This document shows, one piece after another, positions 2-50,343 of a stretch of 64,000 nt of DNA. The stretch comes from Actinomycetes bacterium (lineage in GTDB: Bacteria; Actinomycetota; Acidimicrobiia; Acidimicrobiales; Microtrichaceae), in NCBI GenBank assembly GCA_024222295.1, contig JAAEPF010000002.1, positions 186,001 through 250,000 of the forward strand. The letters run 5' to 3'. The notes under the pieces are model-generated. The model was not told the origin of the DNA, did no database searches, and saw nothing but the letters and a program-made list of their open reading frames with translations. Numbering within the stretch: position 1 is the stretch's first letter; every line of letters begins with the position of its first letter. Both the position numbers and the translations under genes were made by a program.

Positions 2-640
2 TCGCACTTCTGTGAAGTGTTCTTCACCGATGCACGGATCCCCGGAGATGCCTTGCTGGGCGGAGAGGGTGAAGGATGGCGGCTGGCCACGCTGACCCTC
101 GGCAATGAGCGGGTCACGTTGTCCCACGGTGGCCTGCTCTGGGGCATGGGCCCCACGGGCGAAGAAGTGCTCGACGCCGCCATCGCGTTGGCCCGGTCGG
201 GTGTGCGCAGCGACGGCGCTCCCAACGCGATGGCCGATCCGCGGTTGCGCCAGCAGTTCGCCCGGCTCTACACCGACGCCTTCATCCTCGACCGACTCGC
301 CGAGAAGGTCCGCGCAGTCGCTGAGCGCGAAGGCCGGCCCGGTCCGGAGGCATCGCTCGAGAAGCTGCTCTCGGACCAGCACGGCCAGCGCCTCTACGAG
401 CTCCTGTTCGATCTCGGCGGTCCGGCCTCGATGCTTGCGGGCGGTGACAGCACATGGCCGGGGGCGGTTTCGGAGATCGCCCCCGAGCCTCTGGGCGCGG
501 GCCTGGGCGCCAGACACCAGAACCCGTGGCCCTGGGGTGCGTTGTTCTCTCGGGCCCTGACCATCGGCGGCGGCACGACCCAGGTGCAACGCAACATCAT
601 CGCCGAGCGCCTGCTGGGCCTTCCCCGCGAGCCGAGGTGA
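2..640 (+). CDS. Acyl-CoA dehydrogenase, C-terminal part (5' end outside window)
   Basis: The frame is open from the first bases, so the gene begins upstream and only about the last 212 residues are present. The fragment starts SHFCEVFFTDARIP, which matches the conserved strand and loop of the acyl-CoA dehydrogenase middle domain. It continues into an all-helical C-terminal domain and ends with GGGTTQVQRNIIAERLLG, the conserved FAD-contacting and tetramer segment of the family. These flavoenzymes introduce the alpha-beta double bond into acyl-CoA thioesters in fatty-acid or related acid catabolism. The next gene is a crotonase-family protein on the same strand 57 nt downstream, consistent with a small acyl-CoA catabolic operon. 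The substrate cannot be told from this fragment. Confidence 0.9.
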   Translation, partial: SHFCEVFFTDARIPGDALLGGEGEGWRLATLTLGNERVTLSHGGLLWGMGPTGEEVLDAAIALARSGVRSDGAPNAMADPRLRQQFARLYTDAFILDRLAEKVRAVAEREGRPGPEASLEKLLSDQHGQRLYELLFDLGGPASMLAGGDSTWPGAVSEIAPEPLGAGLGARHQNPWPWGALFSRALTIGGGTTQVQRNIIAERLLGLPREPR

Positions 641-697
641 CCCGGCCAGCCCGGTGGCAGCGCGACCGCACATGAGACCGTCAATGGAGACTCAGCC

Positions 698-1534
698 ATG
701 ACTGCACACGAACAACCGATCGAGTACCACGACTGGTCGACGCTGCGCTTCGAGCGGCTCGGAGGGGACACTCCGGAGGACCCCGGCGTGCTCGTAGTCA
801 CCATCGAACGTGCGGGCAGCGACCTGAACGCGGTCGACGAGGCTCTTCACGGCGAGTTGGCCGCCCTTTTCCGTCGGCTGCGCCGCGAGCGCACGGCCCG
901 AGCCGTGGTGTTGACCGGTTCCGGACGGGCATTCTGCGCGGGTGGCGACTTCGAGTGGTTCGAGACGCTCCGCTCGGTGGAGGTGCTCGATGAGCTACGC
1001 CTCGACGCCCGCCAGATCATCTGGGACCTGCTCGACGTCGAGGTGCCGATCGTGTGTGGCCTCAATGGCCACGCCATGGGCCTCGGAGCCTCGATCGCCC
1101 TCCTGTCGGACCTGGTGGTGATGGCCGACTCCGCACGGATCGGTGATCCGCACGTGAGTGTGGGCCTCGTGGCCGGTGACGGTGGCACGGTGATCTGGCC
1201 CGCCGCGGTCGGCCCGGCAAAGGCCAAGGAGCACCTGCTGCTCGGCGACCCGCTCGACGCCGAGTCGGCCGAGCGGGTCGGGCTGGTCAACCGCGTGGTG
1301 CCTGCGGGTGACGTGCTGGAGGAGTCCCTGGCGCTGGCGAAGCGCCTTGCAGCGCAACCGCCATTGGCCGTTCGCTACACGAAGCTGGCGGTCAACCAGC
1401 AGCTCCGCGCGGCGTTGCTGGCATCGTTCGACACCTCCACGGCGCTGGAGCTCACCACATTCCAGTCCGCCGACCACGCCGAGGCGGTCGACGCGATGCG
1501 CAACAAGCGCACCCCCCGCTTCGAGGGCCGCTGA
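698..1534 (+). CDS. Enoyl-CoA hydratase/isomerase (crotonase) family protein
   Basis: A 278-residue crotonase-fold protein. Both oxyanion-hole segments are visible: GSGRAFCAGGDFEW (about residues 74-87) and LNGHAMGLGASIALLSD (about 122-138). In classical enoyl-CoA hydratases the following helix carries the first catalytic glutamate in a PE motif. Here the equivalent reads DPHVSVGL, with His at about 152, while the second glutamate position (KEHLLLGD, about 178) is kept. The reaction may therefore not be simple hydration; isomerase, hydrolase or other crotonase chemistry is possible. GGAG lies about 13 nt before the ATG. It follows an acyl-CoA dehydrogenase, suggesting acyl-CoA catabolism. Confidence 0.85.
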   Translation: MTAHEQPIEYHDWSTLRFERLGGDTPEDPGVLVVTIERAGSDLNAVDEALHGELAALFRRLRRERTARAVVLTGSGRAFCAGGDFEWFETLRSVEVLDELRLDARQIIWDLLDVEVPIVCGLNGHAMGLGASIALLSDLVVMADSARIGDPHVSVGLVAGDGGTVIWPAAVGPAKAKEHLLLGDPLDAESAERVGLVNRVVPAGDVLEESLALAKRLAAQPPLAVRYTKLAVNQQLRAALLASFDTSTALELTTFQSADHAEAVDAMRNKRTPRFEGR

Positions 1535-2169: not shown

Positions 2170-3641
2170 GCGGCGTGCCGAGCGGACTCGCATCTGCTGT
2201 CGACATCGTCGCAGCAGTGCGTGCCGGCGAGACGACTGCGACCGATGTGCTCGAGGAACACCTCGAGCGCATCTCCGAAGACGAAGACACGGTCAATGCC
2301 TTCAACCTCGTCACCGAGGAGGCGGCCCGGGCCGCGGCCGAGCGGGTCGATGCCGCGGTCGCCGCCGGAGACGACCCCGGTGTGCTGGCCGGAGTGCCGG
2401 TCGCTCTGAAGGACAACCTGTGCACCAGAGGGGTGCCGACGACATGCTCGTCGAGGATCCTCGAGGGTTGGGTGCCGCCCTATGACGCCACCGTCGTGCA
2501 GCGCCTGGCGGAGGAGGGTGCGCTGATGGTTGGCAAGACCAACATGGACGAGTTCGCCATGGGCTCCTCCACGGAGAACTCGGCTTTCGGCCCCACCCGC
2601 AACCCACACGACACCGACAGGGTGCCGGGTGGATCCTCGGGCGGGTCCGCGGCGGCGGTCACAGCCGGCTTCGCCGGTCTGTCACTCGGCTCGGACACCG
2701 GCGGCTCGATCCGCCAGCCTGCGTCGCTGTGCGGGGTCGTGGGCATGAAGCCCACCTATGGCCTCGTGTCGCGACTCGGCCTGATCGCGTTCGGCAGCTC
2801 GCTCGACCAGATCGGCCCGTTCGCCCGCAGCGTCGCCGACGCAGCGTTGCTGCTCGAGGCCATCGGCGGACACGACGTGGGGGACTCCACGTCGCTGCCC
2901 AACGCAGTGCCGGACCTCTCCGGCCAGCTGGATGCCGGCGTTGACGGCATGCGTGTCGGCCTCATCACCGAGATGATGGGTGAGGGCATCGAGGCCGACG
3001 TCGTTGCGCGGACCCGCGCAGCTGCAGAGGCGCTGACCGCTGCCGGCGCCACGGTCGAGGAAGTCTCCGTTCCGGCGGTCACCCTCGGCCTCTCGGCCTA
3101 CTACCTCGTGGCACCTGCCGAGGCGTCCTCCAACCTCGCCCGCTACGACGGTGTGCGATACGGCAACCGGGTGGACGGGCCGACCACAGGCGAGATGATG
3201 GAGGCGACCCGGACCGCCGGCTTCGGCGACGAGGTGAAGCGTCGCATCATGCTCGGCACCTATGCCCTCTCAGCGGGCTACTACGACGCCTTCTACGGCA
3301 AGGCTCTGAAGGTTCGCACGCTCACCCGCAACGACTTCGACGCCGCATACGAGAGCTTCGACCTGCTCCTGTCGCCCACCGCGCCGAGCACGGCGTTCGC
3401 CCTTGGTGACAAGACCGAGGATCCACTGGCGATGTACATGAACGACCTCTGCACGATCCCTTCCAACCTGGCAGGGCATCCCGCGATCTCGGTGCCGTTC
3501 GGCACCGGCGACGACGGCCTGCCAGTGGGCGTGCAGGTGCTGGCACCGGCGCTCGGCGAGGTGCCCATGTTCCGGGCGGCCCGGGTTCTGGAGGCGGCGG
3601 CGAACGATGAAGCAGCCGCCAGCGCGGGAGGTGCGTCGTGA
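2166..3641 (+). CDS. gatA: Glu-tRNA(Gln)/Asp-tRNA(Asn) amidotransferase subunit A
   Basis: The amidase-signature subunit, 491 residues. It hydrolyses glutamine and passes ammonia to GatB. The Ser-cisSer-Lys triad is visible: Lys82 in VALKDN, Ser157 in PGGSSGGSAAAV and Ser181 in SDTGGSIRQPA. I chose the GTG at 2166 because it overlaps the gatC stop, and homology to GatA N-termini begins there (helix SAVDIVAAVRAGETTATDV). The open frame extends much further upstream, but that part runs across gatC in another frame and has no GatA character. The stop overlaps the gatB start. Confidence 0.95.
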   Translation: MSGVPSGLASAVDIVAAVRAGETTATDVLEEHLERISEDEDTVNAFNLVTEEAARAAAERVDAAVAAGDDPGVLAGVPVALKDNLCTRGVPTTCSSRILEGWVPPYDATVVQRLAEEGALMVGKTNMDEFAMGSSTENSAFGPTRNPHDTDRVPGGSSGGSAAAVTAGFAGLSLGSDTGGSIRQPASLCGVVGMKPTYGLVSRLGLIAFGSSLDQIGPFARSVADAALLLEAIGGHDVGDSTSLPNAVPDLSGQLDAGVDGMRVGLITEMMGEGIEADVVARTRAAAEALTAAGATVEEVSVPAVTLGLSAYYLVAPAEASSNLARYDGVRYGNRVDGPTTGEMMEATRTAGFGDEVKRRIMLGTYALSAGYYDAFYGKALKVRTLTRNDFDAAYESFDLLLSPTAPSTAFALGDKTEDPLAMYMNDLCTIPSNLAGHPAISVPFGTGDDGLPVGVQVLAPALGEVPMFRAARVLEAAANDEAAASAGGAS

Positions 3642-36739: not shown

Positions 36740-36880
36740 TGGCTGGCAAAACAAGTCCCCACGCGCAGGGAAGCCGGTCGAAGTCCGGCGCTGTCCCGCA
36801 ACCGTAGACACGGCGGTCACCTCGGCCGTCCACTGTGAGCCGGAACGCTGGGCGGGGGACCGCAGCTTCGAACACCGTCC
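36740..36880 (+). promoter_or_regulatory. Cobalamin riboswitch (B12 element) of the ECF operon
   Basis: The core at 36768-36805 starts GGGAAGCCGGTCGAAGTCCG and continues with CGCTGTCCCGCAACCGT. This is the conserved J3/4-P4 region of cobalamin riboswitches (GGGAA..GGTG.AA.TCC..GC.G.CCCGCAAC.GT). The second block GAGCCGGAACGCTGGGCGG (36837-36855) fits the B12-box side. A possible promoter is TTGCCT about 17 nt before TCGAAT near 36713-36741. The boundaries are approximate. It controls the next five genes. Confidence 0.92.
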
Positions 36881-38430: not shown

Positions 38431-39362
38431 CGTCGCCCGCTCGGCGACTGGCACGCCACCTCGTGCCGGCGGTAGCCGGCGCGTGCCTTGTGGCTGCGTT
38501 CGCTCTGGCGCCCGGGGCCAGGTCCGCAGCAGCACCGCGCTCCGGTCCCGATGGGCCATGTCCTGACTCCCGCGGGGTCACGGTTGTGGTCGACTTCCAG
38601 GATCAGGGTCGTGGCGTACAGGTGGGGTGCGCGCCCGGATCGCCGGAGGACGGGTTCGCCGCGCTCCTCGAGGCAGGCTTCGCGGTGCAAGGAGTCGTGA
38701 CCCAGTCGGGCTTCGTGTGCCGGATAGACGACTACCCGGGCCCCGCTGAGGAACTATGCATCGCGACACCCCCGGCAACGGCCTACTGGTCGTACTGGTC
38801 GGCCGATCGCGGTGGGCCCTGGACCTACAGCGACGTGGGCGCCGCTGCACGCACGCCGGGCCAGGGCACGGTCGAAGGCTGGTCGTTCTCGCGTGACGGG
38901 GGAGTCGGCGACGCGCCGCCTCCGCGCAGCGTGACGGCATGGTCGACACCCTCCACGACCAGGGCCGCCAAGACCACGGCCACCACGACCACGGTCGCCC
39001 CGGCGCCGACACCCGCTGCGAGCATCGCATCGGCGACCACGGTCGCTCCCGCTGCACCGGCACCGGCACCCACCGCACCGCCGACCACCGATTCTCCGGT
39101 TGGCGCATCGAGCACCGTTGCGACCACGGCGCCACCCACCACCAGCGGGGCGACGACGACAACCGAGCCGTTGTCGCCCCCCGAAGAGGCGACATCCACG
39201 GTCGAGCTGGTGGACAGCGGCGGTTCAGGCCTCGCACCTGCGGTCGGCACGGCCGTCGGCATCGCGGTGATCGGCGCCGTCGGCGCGGGTGCAGTGGTCC
39301 TCAACAGACGCAGGTTCGCCACAGGCGTGGCCCCGGGTGGGAGTGGCGGGCCCGCCGGCTGA
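38415..39362 (+). CDS. Membrane-anchored DUF4430/transcobalamin-C-like protein
   Basis: A 315-residue protein: signal peptide (about 1-38), a compact domain (about 45-160), a long Thr/Ala/Pro linker (about 170-255) and a C-terminal membrane helix with a basic end (VLNRRRF). The domain contains GPCPDSRGVTVVVDF, DGFAALLEAGFAV, two Cys pairs, and YWSYWSADRGGPWTYSDVGA, which resembles the transcobalamin C-terminal (DUF4430) fold with its YW motif. A paralogue at 42993-43499 shares the PCPDS.GVTVVVDF, YWSYW and VEGW motifs. Together with the previous protein it would supply both halves of a transcobalamin-like B12 binder. The ATG at 38415 overlaps the upstream gene. Its stop overlaps the next start. 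Confidence 0.75.
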   Translation: MALELTSPARRLARHLVPAVAGACLVAAFALAPGARSAAAPRSGPDGPCPDSRGVTVVVDFQDQGRGVQVGCAPGSPEDGFAALLEAGFAVQGVVTQSGFVCRIDDYPGPAEELCIATPPATAYWSYWSADRGGPWTYSDVGAAARTPGQGTVEGWSFSRDGGVGDAPPPRSVTAWSTPSTTRAAKTTATTTTVAPAPTPAASIASATTVAPAAPAPAPTAPPTTDSPVGASSTVATTAPPTTSGATTTTEPLSPPEEATSTVELVDSGGSGLAPAVGTAVGIAVIGAVGAGAVVLNRRRFATGVAPGGSGGPAG

Positions 39363-40498
39363 TGACGGTCGTCGACTCCCGCCCCACAGGAGCGAAACAG
39401 GTCGATGCCCGCGCCCCCCGACGCCTGCCGCGGGCACTGCACCCCGCCGCCTGGTGGATCTGGGCGCTCGGCATGGCCACCGCCGCCAGCCGCACCACCA
39501 ATCTGCTGCTGCTCGGCCTGATCCTCGCAGTGGTGTCGTTCGTGGTGAGTGCCCGGCGCACCGCTGCCCCTTGGGCGCGCGGCTTCGTCTACTACCTGTA
39601 CATGGCGCTGTTCATCGTGGGGCTACGGGTGCTGTTCCGCGTGGTGTTCGACGCCGGCGCCGGCACCACGCTGTTGTTCACCCTGCCGGAGATACCCCTG
39701 CCCGAGGCGGCCGCCGGGATCACCATCGGAGGGGCAGTCACCCTCGAGGCGATCATGGCCGCTCTGCGCGACGGGCTGCGGCTGGCCACACTCATCATCT
39801 GCCTCGGTGCAGCCAACGTGCTTGCCAACCCGAAGCGGTTGCTGGCTTCGGTGCCCGGCGCGCTGCACCAGTTGGCCGTGGCGGTCACCGTTGCGCTCTC
39901 GGTGGCACCGCAACTGGTCGAGTCGGCGCAGCGGATCCAGCGTGCCCGCAGGCTGCGCGGCGATACCGGCCGCCGCACCCATGTGCTGCGCGACATCGTG
40001 GTGCCCGTGGCCACCGACGCCCTTGATCGGTCGCTGCTGCTGGCCGCGTCGATGGACTCCCGTGGCCACGGCCGCCGCGCCTCGGTTGCCAGCGGTTCGG
40101 CCCGGGCGGCAGGGCTGGCCGTGCTGGCCGGACTCGTGGGGGTGTGCATCGGCACCTACGGCACGCTCGACACGACCGTGCCGAGGTTGCTTGGCCTGCC
40201 CATGCTGTTCGGCGGACTGGCCGTGGCAGCCGTGGGCTTCTGGCTGGGTGGCCGCAAGGTCCAGCGCAGCCGCTACCGCCCGGAGCCGTGGGGTCTGGCG
40301 GAGTGGGGCGTATCGCTCTGTGGGGTCGCGGTGGCGGCGTCGATGGTGTGGCTGGCAGGTGCTGACCCGCTGGCCCTCAACCCGTCGGTGGCCGACCTCG
40401 CCTGGCCCGGGTTGCCGCTGGCCGGCGCGCTGGCGGTGTCCATCGGGCTGCTACCCGGTTTCGTTGCGCCGCCGGTGGAGTTGGAGTCGCCAGCATGA
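39362..40498 (+). CDS. ECF transporter T component (EcfT/CbiQ family)
   Basis: A 378-residue membrane protein with about seven to eight helices. The two cytoplasmic coupling helices carry the family's Ala-Arg-Gly-type motifs: RIQRARRLRGDTG (about residue 195) and LLAASMDSRGHGRR (about 230). These contact the ATPase grooves. It is longer than typical EcfT, with extra helices at the C-terminus. The ATG at 39362 overlaps the upstream stop (TGATG) and its own stop overlaps the next start (ATGA). The operon suggests cobalamin as the cargo. Confidence 0.88.
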   Translation: MTVVDSRPTGAKQVDARAPRRLPRALHPAAWWIWALGMATAASRTTNLLLLGLILAVVSFVVSARRTAAPWARGFVYYLYMALFIVGLRVLFRVVFDAGAGTTLLFTLPEIPLPEAAAGITIGGAVTLEAIMAALRDGLRLATLIICLGAANVLANPKRLLASVPGALHQLAVAVTVALSVAPQLVESAQRIQRARRLRGDTGRRTHVLRDIVVPVATDALDRSLLLAASMDSRGHGRRASVASGSARAAGLAVLAGLVGVCIGTYGTLDTTVPRLLGLPMLFGGLAVAAVGFWLGGRKVQRSRYRPEPWGLAEWGVSLCGVAVAASMVWLAGADPLALNPSVADLAWPGLPLAGALAVSIGLLPGFVAPPVELESPA

Positions 40499-42144
40499 GC
40501 GCGCCGGTCATCCATTTCGACAACGTGTCGGTCACGTATCCCGACAGCTCCACTCCCACGCTGAGCGGAGTCGACCTGGAGATCGGCGAGGGCGAACTCT
40601 GCGTCGTGATCGGCCACACCGGTTCCGGCAAGTCCACGCTGCTCGGCGCCATCAACGGCCTGGTACCGCACTTCACCGGCGGCACGCTCGCCGGCACGGT
40701 CTCCGTTGAGGGACGCCCGACGTCGCACAACCCGCCACGGGATCTCGCAGACGTGGTCGGGGCGGTGGGTCAGGACCCACTCGCGGGCTTCGTGACCGAT
40801 GTGGTCGAGGACGAGCTCGCCTATGCGATGGAGCAGCTCGCCGTGGCACCCGACGTGATGCGCAAGCGGGTCGAGGAGACACTCGACCTGCTGGGGATCG
40901 CGGAGCTGCGGCGCCGCGCGTTGGCGGACCTGTCCGGCGGCCAGCAGCAGCGTGTGGCCATCGGATCGGTTCTCACCCCCCAACCGCGAATCCTGGTTCT
41001 CGACGAGCCCACCTCTGCGCTCGACCCCACCGCCGCCGAGGAGGTGCTCGCCGCCATCACGCGTCTGGTGCACGACCTCGGCGTGACGGTGGTGATGGCC
41101 GAGCACCGCCTCGAACGGGTAGTGCAGTATGCGGACCGGATCGTGCGGGTGCACCGCGACGGCACCGTGGCGGACGGCTCTCCGGGCGAGATGCTCACCG
41201 AGACCTCGCTGGTGCCGCCGGTGGTCGGCCTCGGCAACTTGGCCGGCTGGAACCCGGTGCCGCTGTCGGTGCGAGACGCACGGCGGCTGGCCCCGCCGTT
41301 GCGCGACTCCCTCGCTGCGGCGCATCCCGCGGGGCCGCCACCGAGGGTGCGGCCGGCCCGCGCTCCGGTCGGTCTGTCGGCCCGGGACGTGACCGTGAGG
41401 CGCGGCTCCACCGTGGCGGTGCGCCAGGCGAGCTTCGAACTCGGAGCCGGAGTCACTGCGCTCATGGGGCGCAACGGATCGGGCAAGTCGTCTCTGTTAT
41501 GGGCGCTGCAGGGGTCGCTGCAGCGTGCTGCGGGATCGGTCGTGGTCGGCGGCTCGGACCCGGCATCGCTCGGTCCTTCCGAAGCGCGCTCACTGGTGGG
41601 TCTGGTGCCTCAGAGTCCGGCCGACCTGCTCTACCTGACCACGGTGGAGGGGGAGTGCTCCCGAGCCGACTCGGAGGCGGGAGCGGAGCCGGGCACCTGC
41701 TTGGCGCTCCTCGCCCGACTGGTCGAGGCGGTCGACGCATCAGTCAACCCGCGTGACCTGTCCGAAGGGCAACGGCTCGCAGTGGCGCTGGCCGTGCAGC
41801 TCACCGCGGGGCCCGCCGTGCTGCTGCTCGACGAGCCGACGCGGGGGCTCGACTACGGCGCAAAGGCAAGGCTGGGGGCCTACCTCTCGAGCCTCGCTGA
41901 CAGGGCCCATCCGGTCATGGTGGCGACGCACGACGTGGAGTTCGTGGCCGAGTGGGCGGACCGGGTCGTCGTGATGGCCGAGGGGGAGGTGGTGGCCGAT
42001 GGCCCCACATCCGAAGTGGTGGTTGCTTCCGCCGCCTTCGCCCCGCAGGTGGCGAAGGTGCTCGGTCCGCAGCCCTGGATGACGGTCCGCCAGGTTGCCT
42101 CAGCCCTCGGCGTCGGCAGCCCGCCTGCCGGAGTCCCGTCGTGA
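40495..42144 (+). CDS. ECF transporter fused ATPase (A1-A2)
   Basis: A 549-residue protein with two ABC ATPase domains in one chain. Domain 1 (about 4-240): Walker A GHTGSGKST, signature LSGGQQQR, Walker B ILVLDEPTSALD. Domain 2 (about 295-525): Walker A GRNGSGKSS, a degenerate signature LSEGQRLA, Walker B VLLLDEPTRGLD. This is the fused EcfA-EcfA' arrangement that powers ECF importers. The second signature motif departs from LSGGQ, so the two sites may differ in activity. It is coupled by 4-nt overlaps on both sides to the T and S genes. Confidence 0.92.
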   Translation: MSAPVIHFDNVSVTYPDSSTPTLSGVDLEIGEGELCVVIGHTGSGKSTLLGAINGLVPHFTGGTLAGTVSVEGRPTSHNPPRDLADVVGAVGQDPLAGFVTDVVEDELAYAMEQLAVAPDVMRKRVEETLDLLGIAELRRRALADLSGGQQQRVAIGSVLTPQPRILVLDEPTSALDPTAAEEVLAAITRLVHDLGVTVVMAEHRLERVVQYADRIVRVHRDGTVADGSPGEMLTETSLVPPVVGLGNLAGWNPVPLSVRDARRLAPPLRDSLAAAHPAGPPPRVRPARAPVGLSARDVTVRRGSTVAVRQASFELGAGVTALMGRNGSGKSSLLWALQGSLQRAAGSVVVGGSDPASLGPSEARSLVGLVPQSPADLLYLTTVEGECSRADSEAGAEPGTCLALLARLVEAVDASVNPRDLSEGQRLAVALAVQLTAGPAVLLLDEPTRGLDYGAKARLGAYLSSLADRAHPVMVATHDVEFVAEWADRVVVMAEGEVVADGPTSEVVVASAAFAPQVAKVLGPQPWMTVRQVASALGVGSPPAGVPS

Positions 42145-42974
42145 CGGCGATCCACCGCCAGGGTGGGTCGGCGCTGGGCCTGCGCCCCCGGTCTGCTGCG
42201 GCGCTGGGTGTGACCGCGCTGGCAGGCCTGATGATGTTCCTGTGGCCGCTGTTCGTGAACCCGGGCACGGGTCCTACCCACGGCACCGATGGCCCACTCG
42301 TGTTCGTGGTGATACTGCCCCTGCTGATCGCCATCGTGCTGGCAGAGGTGGCTGACGGCGGGATCGACACCAAGGCGATCGCGATGCTCGGCGTGCTCTC
42401 GGCGATTGGCGCGGCCCTGCGCCCGGTAGGCGCCGGCGTGGCCGGCATCGAGACCGTGTTCTTCATGCTGGTGCTCGCCGGAAGGGTCTATGGCCCCGGC
42501 TTCGGCTTCGTGCTCGGCAACACCACGTTGTTCGCGTCGGCGCTGCTGACCGGGGGTGTGGGTCCCTGGTTGCCGTTCCAGATGCTTGCGGCGGGTTGGG
42601 CGGGCCTGGGCGCCGGCCTGCTGCCCGGGCGGGTCAAGGGGCGCTGGGAACTTGCGATGCTGGCTGCCTACGGGGCGTTCTGTGCCTATGCCTACGGCTT
42701 CCTGCTCAACATCTGGTTCTGGCCCTGGGCGATCGGTTCGGACACCGACTTGAGCTTCGTGGCCGGCGACGCCGTGCTCGAGAACCTGCACCGGTTCTTC
42801 CTGTTCACCGTTGCGAGCTCCACGCTCGGTTGGGACACGGGGCGGGCGATCACCAACGTGGTGGCGATCCTGGTGCTCGGCCCGTCCGTTCTGCTGGTGC
42901 TGCGCCGGGCGCACCACAAGGCCGCCTTCGAGGTCCCGACCCGCTTCGTTGGTGCTGAATCACCGTCACGGTGA
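42141..42974 (+). CDS. ECF transporter substrate-binding S component, probably for cobalamin
   Basis: A 277-residue protein with about six membrane helices, the size of an S component plus a short N-terminal lead. AALRPVGAGVAGIETVFFML and AGRVYGPGFGFVLGNTTLF (about residues 92-130) match an actinobacterial ECF S family that I associate with CbrT-like B12 transporters. No cobalamin-synthesis genes are nearby. The GTG start overlaps the ATPase stop. The last codons (RFVGAESPSR) are encoded by the left arm of a perfect palindrome. Confidence 0.8.
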   Translation: MTAIHRQGGSALGLRPRSAAALGVTALAGLMMFLWPLFVNPGTGPTHGTDGPLVFVVILPLLIAIVLAEVADGGIDTKAIAMLGVLSAIGAALRPVGAGVAGIETVFFMLVLAGRVYGPGFGFVLGNTTLFASALLTGGVGPWLPFQMLAAGWAGLGAGLLPGRVKGRWELAMLAAYGAFCAYAYGFLLNIWFWPWAIGSDTDLSFVAGDAVLENLHRFFLFTVASSTLGWDTGRAITNVVAILVLGPSVLLVLRRAHHKAAFEVPTRFVGAESPSR

Positions 42975-42986
42975 TTCAGCACCAAC
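42948..42986. terminator. Perfect 19-bp palindrome at the convergent junction
   Basis: GTTGGTGCTGAATCACCGT, one C, then its exact reverse complement. It spans the stop of the S-component gene and lies 6 nt from the stop of the opposite lipoprotein gene. It has no U tract on either strand, but the stem is very stable and would form in both transcripts, so a bidirectional terminator or 3'-end stabiliser is likely. Confidence 0.75.
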
Positions 42987-42992
42987 AGAGCA

Positions 42993-43499
42993 CTACTGCA
43001 GTGGGTCGCCGTCGGGGCCGAGGCGGGGGCCATCGGACACGAAGCCCTGTGCCCATGCCCAACCCTCGACCGTGCCCTCGACCAGCGGGCCATCAGACGG
43101 GCCGGTCGGGGCGAAGTCCCATGCGCCGGCCGTGCTGGGCGCACGCCAGTAGGACCAGTAGCCGTCGGTCAGCCAGCAGTAGGGATAGCCCTCGACCGGC
43201 AGGCCCTCGAGCGTGCAGACGGTGCCCGGCTCGGCGTTGGCAGCGTTGGTGTTGATGGCGAGCCCTATTGCCAGCAGCGCGGCGAGGCCGCTCTCCTGGG
43301 GACCGATGGCGCAGCGCACGAGCTGCTCGTCGCTGAGGTCGGCGGTGAAGTCGACCACCACGGTGACTCCCGAGGAGTCGGGGCACGGCCCGTCGGTGTA
43401 GGTGGGGCCGCCGCCACCACCGGGTGCGGGTGCCACGCATGCGGATGCGACGGCTGCCACTGCGGCGAGGCCGCCGATGGCGAGTTGACGGAGTTTCAT
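42993..43499 (-). CDS. Lipoprotein paralogue of the DUF4430-like B12 operon protein
   Basis: A 168-residue protein with signal peptide and lipobox (MKLRQLAIGG, then VASACVAP, Cys near 21). The mature domain repeats the features of the protein at 38415-39362: GPCPDSSGVTVVVDF, CAIGPQESGLAALLAIGLAI, two Cys pairs, YCWLTDGYWSYWRAPS and VEGTVEGWAWAQG. It lacks the long linker and membrane helix, so it would sit on the membrane through the lipid. It has its own cobalamin riboswitch and converges on the ECF operon. I infer a B12-binding role. ATG 43499 is chosen because the signal peptide starts there. Confidence 0.8.
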   Translation of the reverse strand: MKLRQLAIGGLAAVAAVASACVAPAPGGGGGPTYTDGPCPDSSGVTVVVDFTADLSDEQLVRCAIGPQESGLAALLAIGLAINTNAANAEPGTVCTLEGLPVEGYPYCWLTDGYWSYWRAPSTAGAWDFAPTGPSDGPLVEGTVEGWAWAQGFVSDGPRLGPDGDPLQ

Positions 43500-43569
43500 G
43501 TTTGCCTTTGGGTCCGGGACCTGATCGGGATCCCGTCCCGAGGGCTCCACTGCGCGGCGCCGTCGGTGC

Positions 43570-43731
43570 GAGCTCACGATCCGCAGTCCTCGACGGATGT
43601 CTGAGCGACACTCCACGTCGGGCATTCCGACTCGTGGCGGCCGGAGCCGCCACCCACGGTTGCGGGACAGTGCCGGATTCAGACCGGCTTTCCCCTTCGT
43701 GGAGCGTGTCCGCAACGGTGCCGTCGCGGAC
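43570..43731 (-). promoter_or_regulatory. Second cobalamin riboswitch, minus strand
   Basis: Read on the minus strand, 43695-43658 gives GGGGAAAGCCGGTCTGAATC followed by CGGCACTGTCCCGCAACC, the conserved cobalamin-riboswitch core. Downstream comes GAGTCGGAATGCCCGACG (about 43634-43617), close to the B12-box partner. A GGGATCCC-containing stem near 43540-43515 may be the expression platform. It precedes the lipoprotein gene at 43499. The ends are approximate. Confidence 0.9.
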
Positions 43732-43737
43732 GGTGCG

Positions 43738-43766
43738 ACCATAACCAGTCCGGGGCGGCTGGGCAA
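43738..43766 (-). promoter_or_regulatory. Promoter of the minus-strand riboswitch transcript
   Basis: On the minus strand TTGCCC (43766-43761) and TATGGT (43743-43738) are separated by 17 nt. Transcription would start near 43731, giving a leader of about 230 nt that contains the riboswitch. Confidence 0.55.
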
Positions 43767-43821: not shown

Positions 43822-43881
43822 ATGTCATGCCTCGAAGGCCACCGGGAGCGCCGCAGCGAAGCGGTAGTGATCATTCGGTAG
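43822..43881 (+). CDS. Leader peptide of the leuB attenuator
   Basis: A 19-codon frame encoding MSCLEGHRERRSEAVVIIR, with Val-Val-Ile-Ile just before the end. A 9-bp stem with two G-U pairs (43881-43889 with 43896-43904) starts at the stop codon and an intrinsic terminator follows. Stalling at Val/Ile codons when these amino acids are scarce would change folding and let polymerase reach leuB-ilvE-cimA. The peptide has no other visible function. Confidence 0.7.
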   Translation: MSCLEGHRERRSEAVVIIR

Positions 43882-43935
43882 CGCGCGTCGATCCCGGCGT
43901 GCGCTTGTAACCGTCCCTCGGGGCGGTTTTCTTTT
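43881..43935 (+). terminator. leuB attenuator: pause hairpin and terminator
   Basis: The first hairpin is GCGCGCGTC-GATCCC-GGCGTGCGC (43881-43904). The second is ACCGTCCC-TC-GGGGCGGT (43910-43927), followed by TTTCTTTT, a standard intrinsic terminator. It lies 52 nt before the leuB ATG and directly after the leader peptide. Confidence 0.8.
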
Positions 43936-48285: not shown

Positions 48286-49209
48286 TCAGGCCGTGATCTC
48301 GACCTGGGTGCCGACCGGCAACTGGTCATAGAGGAGTTCCACGACCTCGTTGGGCATGCGCACACAGCCATTGGACGCGGCCTGGCCGATCAGATCAGGT
48401 CGCGACGTGCCATGCATGGCGATCACCGGCACTCCGTCGCTGAACCGGTCCAGCTGCTCGCTGTAGACATTGAGCGGCAACATCCGGGTGCCGTAGGCGG
48501 CGCTGGGAGTCCGGTCGCTCTTGTCGGTGATGTAGAACCGGCCGGTGGGCGTGCGGCGGCTGTCGTTGCCGATCACCACGAGCGTCTCGGCGATCGCCTC
48601 GCTGCCCTTGTATGCGACCAGCCGGCGCTCGCTGAGATCGAGCTCGACGCGGTAGTCGTGCTGGCTGAGGTCGACCTGTGAGGTGTCGATGTAGCCGCGG
48701 GTGCCGTTGGGTCGCACCGGGATCATCACCTCGGCCCAATTGCCTCGCTGCTCGGTGACGAGCATCGAGAACGGCTGGCTGAACGGCGGCGACGACGGGT
48801 TCGAGAACTCCCATCCGAACGGTGTCCTGTAGCGGCCGACGATTGGCAGGTCGGGGTTGGGGAGCGCCTTGGCGTCGGGGAACTCGGCCGCACTCGCCGG
48901 CAGTTCGGGGGCTTCCCACACGATGGCGGGCTCGAGGGCCTCCCAGTCGGGTGGCGGCGCCTCCCACACGATGACGTTGTCGACTCCCGGCTTGGCGGTT
49001 GCCACCTGGCTCACCGCAGCCGGTCGTGTCTCCGGCATGGTGGTCGAGGTGGCCGTCGTCTCGGTGGTGGCCCGCCGCGGTGAGTCCAGGGTCGTGGAGC
49101 TCGGGGCGCTGCTGCTCCGGTCGAACAGGAACCACGCGCCGGTGATCACGAGTACCGCGAGTGCTCCTGCGGCGATGCCGACGAAGGGCTTGGGGCGCTT
49201 GTCGTCCAT
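48286..49209 (-). CDS. L,D-transpeptidase (YkuD domain), copy A
   Basis: A 307-residue envelope enzyme: one N-terminal membrane anchor (AAGALAVLVITGAWFLF), a Ser/Thr-rich stretch, an SH3-like region (about 115-185, with SMLVTEQRGNWAEVMIPV) and a C-terminal YkuD domain. The catalytic motif is HGTSRPDLIGQAASNGCVRM, with nucleophile Cys; the usual SHGC is SNGC here. Such enzymes make 3-3 cross-links in peptidoglycan or attach proteins. A close paralogue lies immediately upstream on the same strand. The ATG at 49209 has an AGGCGAGG site. Confidence 0.9.
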   Translation of the reverse strand: MDDKRPKPFVGIAAGALAVLVITGAWFLFDRSSSAPSSTTLDSPRRATTETTATSTTMPETRPAAVSQVATAKPGVDNVIVWEAPPPDWEALEPAIVWEAPELPASAAEFPDAKALPNPDLPIVGRYRTPFGWEFSNPSSPPFSQPFSMLVTEQRGNWAEVMIPVRPNGTRGYIDTSQVDLSQHDYRVELDLSERRLVAYKGSEAIAETLVVIGNDSRRTPTGRFYITDKSDRTPSAAYGTRMLPLNVYSEQLDRFSDGVPVIAMHGTSRPDLIGQAASNGCVRMPNEVVELLYDQLPVGTQVEITA

Positions 49210-49227
49210 CCTCGCCTCCGTTGCGGC

Positions 49228-50343
49228 CTAGGCCCTTATCTCGACCTGGGTGCCGACCGGCAACTGGTCGTAGAGGAGCTCCACGACCTCATTGGGCATG
49301 CGCACACAACCGTTGGACTCGGCCTGTCCGATCAGTGAGGGGTCGCTGGTCCCGTGCATGGCGATCACCGGCACGCCGTCGTCCTCACCGAAGCGGTCCA
49401 GCTGCTCGCTGTAGCCATTGAGCGGCAACATGTGTGACCCGTAGAAGCTGCTCGGCGTCTCGTCGGTCTTGTCGGTCACGTAGAAGCGCCCCGTGGGTGT
49501 GCGGGTGGCGTCCTTGCCGATGACAACCAGCGTGTCCATGATCACGTCGTTGCCCTGGTATGCAACGAGTTGGCGGTCGCTGAGGTCGAGCTCGACGCGG
49601 TAGTCGTGTTGGCTGAGGTCGACCTGTGAGGTGTCGATGTAGCCGCGGGTGCCGTTGGGCCGCACCGGCATCAAGACCTCGGCCCAGTCGCCGCGCTGCT
49701 CTGTGACCAGCATCGTGAACGGCTGGTCGAACGGCGTCGGATTGGAGAACTCCCATCCGGTCGGAGTCTTGTAGCGACCTTCGATCCGGTAGTCCTCGCG
49801 GGGTAGTGCAGCCCGGTCGAACTCCTCCTGGCTGGCGGGCAGCTCCGGCGCCTCCCACATCACCGCGGGCCCCATCGTGTCCCAGCCGATCGGTGGCTGT
49901 TGGTCGACCACGACCGTGGAGACATCGGGCTTGGCGGTTGCCACCTGGCTCACCAGCGCCGGGCGGACCTGGGGGTCTGTGCTCGGAGCGGGAGCGGCGC
50001 TGGTGACGGTCGTGGTCGGCGCGTTGGCCGGTTCATCGCTGCGAACGAACAGCAACCACCCGAGCAGGGCGAGCACCGCCACGACGGCAGCAGCGGCGAC
50101 CACCCTGTTGCGGTCAAGACCGGCGGCTGCTGCTTCGGCCGCGGGATCCTCGGGCTGCTCGGACCCTTCGATGTCGTCAGCGGAATCGCTGCCACCGCGA
50201 CGTCTGCGGACAACTGCGGCGGCCGCCATCTCGGCGACACCGGCCTTCGTGTGCGTACCGGCGTCGCTGTCCTCGGGGTCGGGTCCGTCCTGGGGGACGT
50301 TTTCATCCTCGGAATCGGTTCCAGAATCGTCTTCGGGGGGCAT
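49228..50343 (-). CDS. L,D-transpeptidase (YkuD domain), copy B
   Basis: A 371-residue paralogue of the gene downstream. A longer acidic cytoplasmic tail (about 1-75, rich in Asp/Glu, with a VVRRRRGG patch) precedes one membrane helix (VVAAAAVVAVLALLGWLLFV). The same SQVATAKP segment, SH3-like region and YkuD domain follow, with HGTSDPSLIGQAESNGCVRM. The 3' parts of the two genes are nearly identical at DNA level, indicating a recent tandem duplication or gene conversion. The start codon has an upstream GGAG. The genes are 18 nt apart. Confidence 0.9.
   Translation of the reverse strand: MPPEDDSGTDSEDENVPQDGPDPEDSDAGTHTKAGVAEMAAAAVVRRRRGGSDSADDIEGSEQPEDPAAEAAAAGLDRNRVVAAAAVVAVLALLGWLLFVRSDEPANAPTTTVTSAAPAPSTDPQVRPALVSQVATAKPDVSTVVVDQQPPIGWDTMGPAVMWEAPELPASQEEFDRAALPREDYRIEGRYKTPTGWEFSNPTPFDQPFTMLVTEQRGDWAEVLMPVRPNGTRGYIDTSQVDLSQHDYRVELDLSDRQLVAYQGNDVIMDTLVVIGKDATRTPTGRFYVTDKTDETPSSFYGSHMLPLNGYSEQLDRFGEDDGVPVIAMHGTSDPSLIGQAESNGCVRMPNEVVELLYDQLPVGTQVEIRA

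Follow-up and report, generated by a model that had tools for sequence, protein, structure and literature searches.

The window (the whole stretch of DNA analysed, 64,000 nucleotides from a member of the family Microtrichaceae, order Acidimicrobiales) contains an ECF transporter operon on the plus strand and, facing it on the minus strand, a stand-alone gene for a short lipoprotein, P0001 (Table 1). The operon starts with an alpha/alpha toroid protein (P0003), followed by a secreted beta-domain protein (P0002, here called beta-1), an EcfT/CbiQ-like protein, a fused double ECF ATPase, and an S component belonging to the PF12822 family, with all neighbouring genes overlapping. The toroid has a weak similarity to squalene cyclases, and no other such toroid was found in the genome. 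The LAxTG motif, present at its C-terminus, is linked to class E sortases, and the genome has two sortase-domain genes; P0003 may be anchored to the cell wall in this manner. The lipoprotein and S-component genes end at 42993 and 42974, respectively, which agrees with the convergent arrangement originally predicted. The perfect inverted repeat between them has an 18-bp stem (42948–42986) that runs into the end of the S-component gene and is not accompanied by a T tract, and it is possibly a bidirectional terminator common to both genes.

Table 1. Features of the lipoprotein gene and the neighbouring ECF operon (positions within the window).
Feature	Position	Strand	Evidence and remarks
Second cobalamin riboswitch core, ahead of ECF operon	36768..36861	plus	RF00174 28.3 bits, E 3.5e-4, below gathering score
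Alpha/alpha toroid protein P0003	36955..38430	plus	From ATG 36955; Thr/Pro-rich stalk, LAATG + helix + Arg tail (sortase-like)
Beta-1 P0002	38415..39362	plus	Secreted beta domain, Thr/Pro stalk, C-terminal membrane helix
EcfT / CbiQ-like	39362..40498	plus	PF02361, E 3.9e-7
Fused double ECF ATPase	40495..42144	plus	Domain matches
ECF S component	42141..42974	plus	PF12822, E 2.7e-8; GTG start, overlaps ATPase stop
Perfect 18-bp inverted repeat, loop of 3	42948..42986		Between the convergent genes; -38.8 kcal/mol, z -10.9
Beta-2 lipoprotein gene P0001	42993..43499	minus	168 aa, ATG at 43499; translation and predicted fold
Signal peptide of P0001, lipobox A-S-A-C21	43437..43499	minus	Residues ending ...AVASAC21
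RF01482 (AdoCbl) match, overlapping RF00174	43569..43719	minus	44.9 bits, below gathering score 50; takes in downstream hairpin
Cobalamin riboswitch aptamer RF00174 of P0001	43600..43743	minus	32.7 bits, cut-off 31.5
Promoter-like TTGCCC-17-TATGGT	43738..43766	minus	8/12 consensus matches, putative

Inspection of P0001 (beta-2) identified a signal peptide with a lipobox cysteine, as is characteristic of bacterial lipoproteins. A two-sequence BLASTP comparison with the operon protein P0002 gave 37% identity over 163 columns (E = 2e-21), bearing out the original prediction that the two proteins have motifs in common, namely DGPCPDS(S/R)GVTVVVDF, YWSYW, and TVEGW. The translation is also in accordance with the prediction that the lipoprotein is without the linker and membrane helix of the operon protein, as the C-terminal helix, stalk, and linker are all absent. 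The lipobox pattern also fired inside the hydrophobic stretch of P0002 and at the first domain cysteine of many short secreted copies, and these matches were judged to be false by their position.

P0001 is preceded by its own cobalamin riboswitch. An independent riboswitch had been anticipated, and the Rfam scan proposed at the time recovers it above the RF00174 gathering score (43743–43600, minus strand; E = 1.5e-4 for the window), with the core at 43694–43658, one base off the previously given 43695–43658. Across the genome (3.76 Mb, 97% complete), RF00174 returned three rows at E up to 1, consisting of the riboswitches of the lipoprotein gene and the operon and a 27-base fragment (E = 0.23), and the only two matches with E < 0.001 are both at this locus. 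The string TTGCCC-17-TATGGT, which had been proposed as the promoter, is indeed present at 43766–43738, but it is weak as a promoter: no promoter was returned when 9 of 12 consensus matches were required, and sites as loose as this one occur 20 times in the 64 kb when both strands are counted together. The expression platform folds no better than shuffled sequences (z = -0.84), and for this reason neither a terminator nor a sequestering mechanism is proposed. In the cobalamin riboswitch family, plentiful AdoCbl is known to lower expression, and AdoCbl would be expected to repress P0001 likewise.

The identity of the P0001 domain was given by its predicted fold, as searches of Pfam, NCBIfam, and PDB sequences failed to provide it by themselves. 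No Pfam family reaches P0001, nor credibly any of 25 aligned beta domains, and no PDB chain credibly matches P0001 by sequence; the link to transcobalamin therefore rests on the fold. The NCBIfam model NF040672 (SCO2322 family) matches all 25 aligned beta domains (best E = 3.8e-20), and P0001 scores 21–22 bits against this family, which is below the cut-off of 85 and leaves it outside the family as defined. An AlphaFold model of the domain, built with 25 sequences, has a mean pLDDT of 90.8. In a Foldseek search of the PDB, rows 1–18 were all transcobalamin, haptocorrin, intrinsic factor, or the bacterial structure 3u7z (E = 0.015 to 0.37), and the first was the isolated human transcobalamin beta domain 5np4, at an E-value of only 0.015. 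The same group filled rows 1–15 of VIA-align (Z 8.8–9.5, rmsd 2.9–3.7, 94–103 residues), separated by a clear gap from row 16 at Z 5.5. The rows from there on (Z up to 5.5), which are binary-toxin translocation components along with ubiquitin-like proteins, were read as having the common beta-grasp arrangement, and nothing was drawn from them. The P0001 model has strands of only two residues at 51–52 and 66–67; in the model of a fused homologue, strands 52–55 and 59–66 follow helix 41–47. Judging from the model, P0001 probably has a transcobalamin-type beta domain (SLBB, beta-grasp). The original prediction was correct in treating the two ligand domains as paralogous, but it recognised neither the transcobalamin beta fold nor the matching toroid in the operon.

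A search of the order for homologues of P0001 found a match in 34 of 298 genomes at E 0.001. The family counts below refer to the 12 family genomes listed; a further 244 genomes of the order were without a match, apparently none of them belonging to the family. Ten of the 12 match P0001, and the short lipid-anchored beta-2 occurs in six, as seven genes (one each in the window, L037, L038, L039, and L040, and two in L043). Four of the six (the window, L037, L038, and L039) have the gene facing the ECF operon convergently; in the other two, L040 and L043, it is located apart from the operon. All seven genes are preceded by a cobalamin-riboswitch-like element, with five above the RF00174 cut-off and the remaining two just below the cut-offs (RF00174, 31.3 of 31.5; RF01689, 33.5 of 36.5). 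A core pattern alone recovered six of these seven riboswitches, and it occurred 77 times in 1.53 Mb of loci against twice in a reversed control. Neither the core pattern nor the Rfam gathering score found a riboswitch ahead of the toroid-beta-ECF operons of the family members L041, L044, and L045, so the riboswitch of the operon is not universal in the family. Since the lipoprotein is missing from six of the 12 genomes, four of which have the operon beta domain, the gene could be regarded as a duplicate of the operon gene that the cell can dispense with and that has no role of its own. We consider this highly improbable, because the lipobox, the domain, and the riboswitch are kept in all seven genes at 38–62% domain identity to P0001; each of the seven proteins also ends 13–17 residues past the domain.

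Two further observations were made among the family loci. L043 has a third cobalamin riboswitch (1323–1478, minus strand) before a different lipoprotein (about 74–1207, minus strand) that is weakly similar to NCBIfam LIC_13355 and is possibly another surface protein under B12 control. In genome G133, L042 encodes a beta domain of the lipoprotein clade (3198–3569, minus strand) with an LPRTG sortase motif and a helix and without a lipobox.

A wider scan, of genome contigs, identified at least 78 loci, nearly all from Actinomycetota, among the best 80 of 153 confirmed stretches, and most of these loci have the toroid and beta domain near EcfT, EcfA, and EcfS. Outside the seven lipoproteins, there are at least 34 additional short beta proteins without a stalk, and within the same best 80 of 153 stretches a riboswitch core lies within 500 bases upstream of nine of them and within 2000 bases of 28. 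Cultivable relatives with a short beta gene as well as a toroid include Kribbella (L119) and Thermomonospora (L070). The short rows L047, L120, and L133 (truncated or misparsed) were excluded from these counts, L057–L059 were dropped as repeats of L037, L038, and L042, and L053 was left out of the alignments. In a tree of 131 rows over 120 columns, in which the bootstrap was not settled, the seven lipoproteins fall in a branch of ten rows (100/100) together with L099, the LPRTG-tailed L042, and L052, which has a very long branch; the lipoproteins are thus not strictly one clade. The beta-2 branch has a PxxGYPxC stretch that is absent from the operon copies. With its own branch and motif, beta-2 might be specialised for a corrinoid different from that of beta-1, such as cobinamide or a cobamide with a different lower ligand. 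This would be a sequence-based reading that we find improbable, as both units are under the same riboswitch family.

The toroid fold was examined in a homologue, the fused protein of L069, whose model has a pLDDT of 92.9 and a modest pTM of 0.72. Its toroid half matches terpene cyclases with Z up to 25.2, corresponding to the alpha/alpha toroid fold, and has a match to PF00432 (Prenyltrans) below the cut-off (E = 5e-5). Neither PDB structure search with the fused model has transcobalamin among the 50 matches listed, as terpene cyclases and glycosidases take up the lists. Among the at least 78 loci, the beta domain and toroid form a single polypeptide, in that order, in L069, L076, and L095 (Pseudonocardiaceae), whose products end with an LAxTG motif, and in L099 (Acidimicrobiales). 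The toroid and beta-1 of L039 also lie in one open frame and were not counted as a fusion, since two hydrophobic stretches, and perhaps an internal start, lie between them. The four fusions suggest that beta-2 more likely works with a toroid than alone, and the position of L099 within the lipoprotein branch means that one of the lipoprotein's close relatives forms a single chain with a toroid.

These fusions bear on the proposal that the lipoprotein binds B12 by itself at the membrane without any part for the toroid, which would act further out along with beta-1. Such independence would be consistent with the lipoprotein gene having a riboswitch of its own, with the location of this gene away from the operon in two genomes (G140 and G236), and with the binding of cobalamin by the isolated human transcobalamin beta domain without the alpha domain (5np4; accessible part of PMC5599065). 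However, the same source attributes the sub-picomolar affinity of full human transcobalamin to both domains (PMC5599065), and L099 and the three Pseudonocardiaceae loci have beta domain and toroid in one polypeptide, so we regard independent binding as unlikely. The original prediction had similarly suggested two anchoring modes for one ligand domain, with capture at two depths of the envelope or, alternatively, a high-affinity shuttle. The riboswitch-linked paralogue, the differing anchors, and the recurrence of the pair in relatives all stand, whereas one free-standing ligand domain acting at two depths is disfavoured by the fusions.

With a toroid bearing a sortase-like tail as the first gene of the operon, the locus can be read as encoding a split binder composed of a toroid (wall), beta-1 (membrane helix), and beta-2 (lipid). 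In the reading that we prefer, with a probability of about 0.6 and based on the structural model, P0001 would supply the lipid-anchored beta domain to a cobalamin binder that resembles a split transcobalamin, includes the toroid, and feeds the ECF importer. The lipoprotein probably helps the cell to catch B12 and pass it to the neighbouring importer. At low intracellular B12, the riboswitch would let P0001 be expressed together with the neighbouring operon, and the beta domain of P0001 would hold cobalamin on the outside of the membrane. The toroid, presumably anchored to the wall, could then close over the bound ligand in the manner of the alpha domain in transcobalamin, and the vitamin would move on to the ECF importer, probably via the membrane-anchored beta-1. 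We infer cobalamin as the ligand, the assembly with the toroid, and the hand-over to the S component, and the order of hand-over and the role of beta-1 are likewise suppositions. An analogy is provided by human transcobalamin, as separately made alpha and beta domains assemble only upon the addition of cobalamin, according to the accessible part of that study (PMC5599065); by this analogy, the lipoprotein may be viewed as the beta half, tethered to the membrane and closed by the toroid. A more elaborate and only tentative version is a transcobalamin in three layers, where a sortase fixes the toroid in the wall, a lipid anchors beta-2, and a helix anchors beta-1. In this version, cobalamin would glue the toroid to a membrane beta domain and be carried from wall to membrane before ECF uptake, and separate B12 riboswitches would control the lipoprotein and the operon. 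As for the need of the host for B12, the genome has four proteins above the cut-off for a B12-binding domain and one partial match to Peripla_BP_2. CbiC, used as a single marker gene, was not found in the genome, and from this one marker the host may be a B12 auxotroph.

The closest known counterpart is the beta domain of transcobalamin, intrinsic factor, and haptocorrin (SLBB superfamily, transcobalamin-like clade; PMC1796856), which the locus resembles in the predicted beta fold, the adjoining alpha/alpha toroid, and the fusions in some relatives. Unlike transcobalamin, the domains here are on separate genes with three anchoring modes, the identity is about 13% with no Pfam match, and the beta domain precedes the alpha domain in the actinobacterial fusions. 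Secreted transcobalamin-like SLBB proteins encoded near CbiO/CbiQ genes have been proposed to scavenge B12, often with a toroid and sometimes with a second SLBB paralogue, in hosts that usually lack B12 synthesis enzymes (Burroughs et al., 2007; accessible part of PMC1796856). The locus shares the secreted SLBB protein, toroid, CbiO/CbiQ-like genes, and second SLBB protein with these Gram-positive operons and, as it fits that proposal, may be considered an actinobacterial form of the system already proposed. In contrast, the hosts named in the accessible part of that paper are low-GC Gram-positives, planctomycetes, and euryarchaea, not actinobacteria, and neither a lipoprotein nor a riboswitch-controlled stand-alone beta domain was found there (PMC1796856). 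ECF-CbrT of Lactobacillus delbrueckii is similar in having an ECF module with an S component and a presumed B12 substrate, but CbrT is itself described as the binder, and the accessible part of the report describes no extracellular transcobalamin-like proteins (PMC5997447). The S component of the Microtrichaceae operon has no match to the solved chains: no PDB chain was found at E up to 1 with its sequence or with a 16-row profile (the alignment omitted L080 along with L053), so a tie to CbrT was not found by sequence. The BtuH surface lipoproteins of Bacteroidetes are also accessory B12-binding lipoproteins encoded in a B12 transport locus, although their binding domain, which has no known structural homologues according to the accessible part of that study, differs in fold from P0001 (PMC8941943). 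The NCBIfam entry for the SCO2322 family (NF040672), below whose cut-off P0001 falls, gives no function.

A search of the open-licence literature found no description of a riboswitch-controlled stand-alone beta lipoprotein and no paper on SCO2322. Within that literature, what appears to be new is the actinobacterial branch, the stand-alone lipid-anchored beta domain preceded by a separate riboswitch, and the repeated occurrence of this beta domain within one family. The analysis suggests a function for the SCO2322 family, which has members in Streptomyces, Micromonospora, Amycolatopsis, and relatives among the loci found. It also makes it possible to test for a split form of the animal B12 carrier, and the locus offers a natural case in which to look for alpha and beta domains that are made separately and assemble upon ligand binding.

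Elsewhere in the window, a plus-strand stretch at 43822–43928 has a short frame that ends with Val-Val-Ile-Ile-Arg-stop (43881) and is followed by a terminator-like hairpin (43909–43928). The genes after the hairpin are presumably leuB and ilvE, and we take the leader to resemble a branched-chain amino acid attenuator. Two adjacent similar ORFs on the minus strand at 48286–50343 presumably encode tandem L,D-transpeptidase-type proteins.
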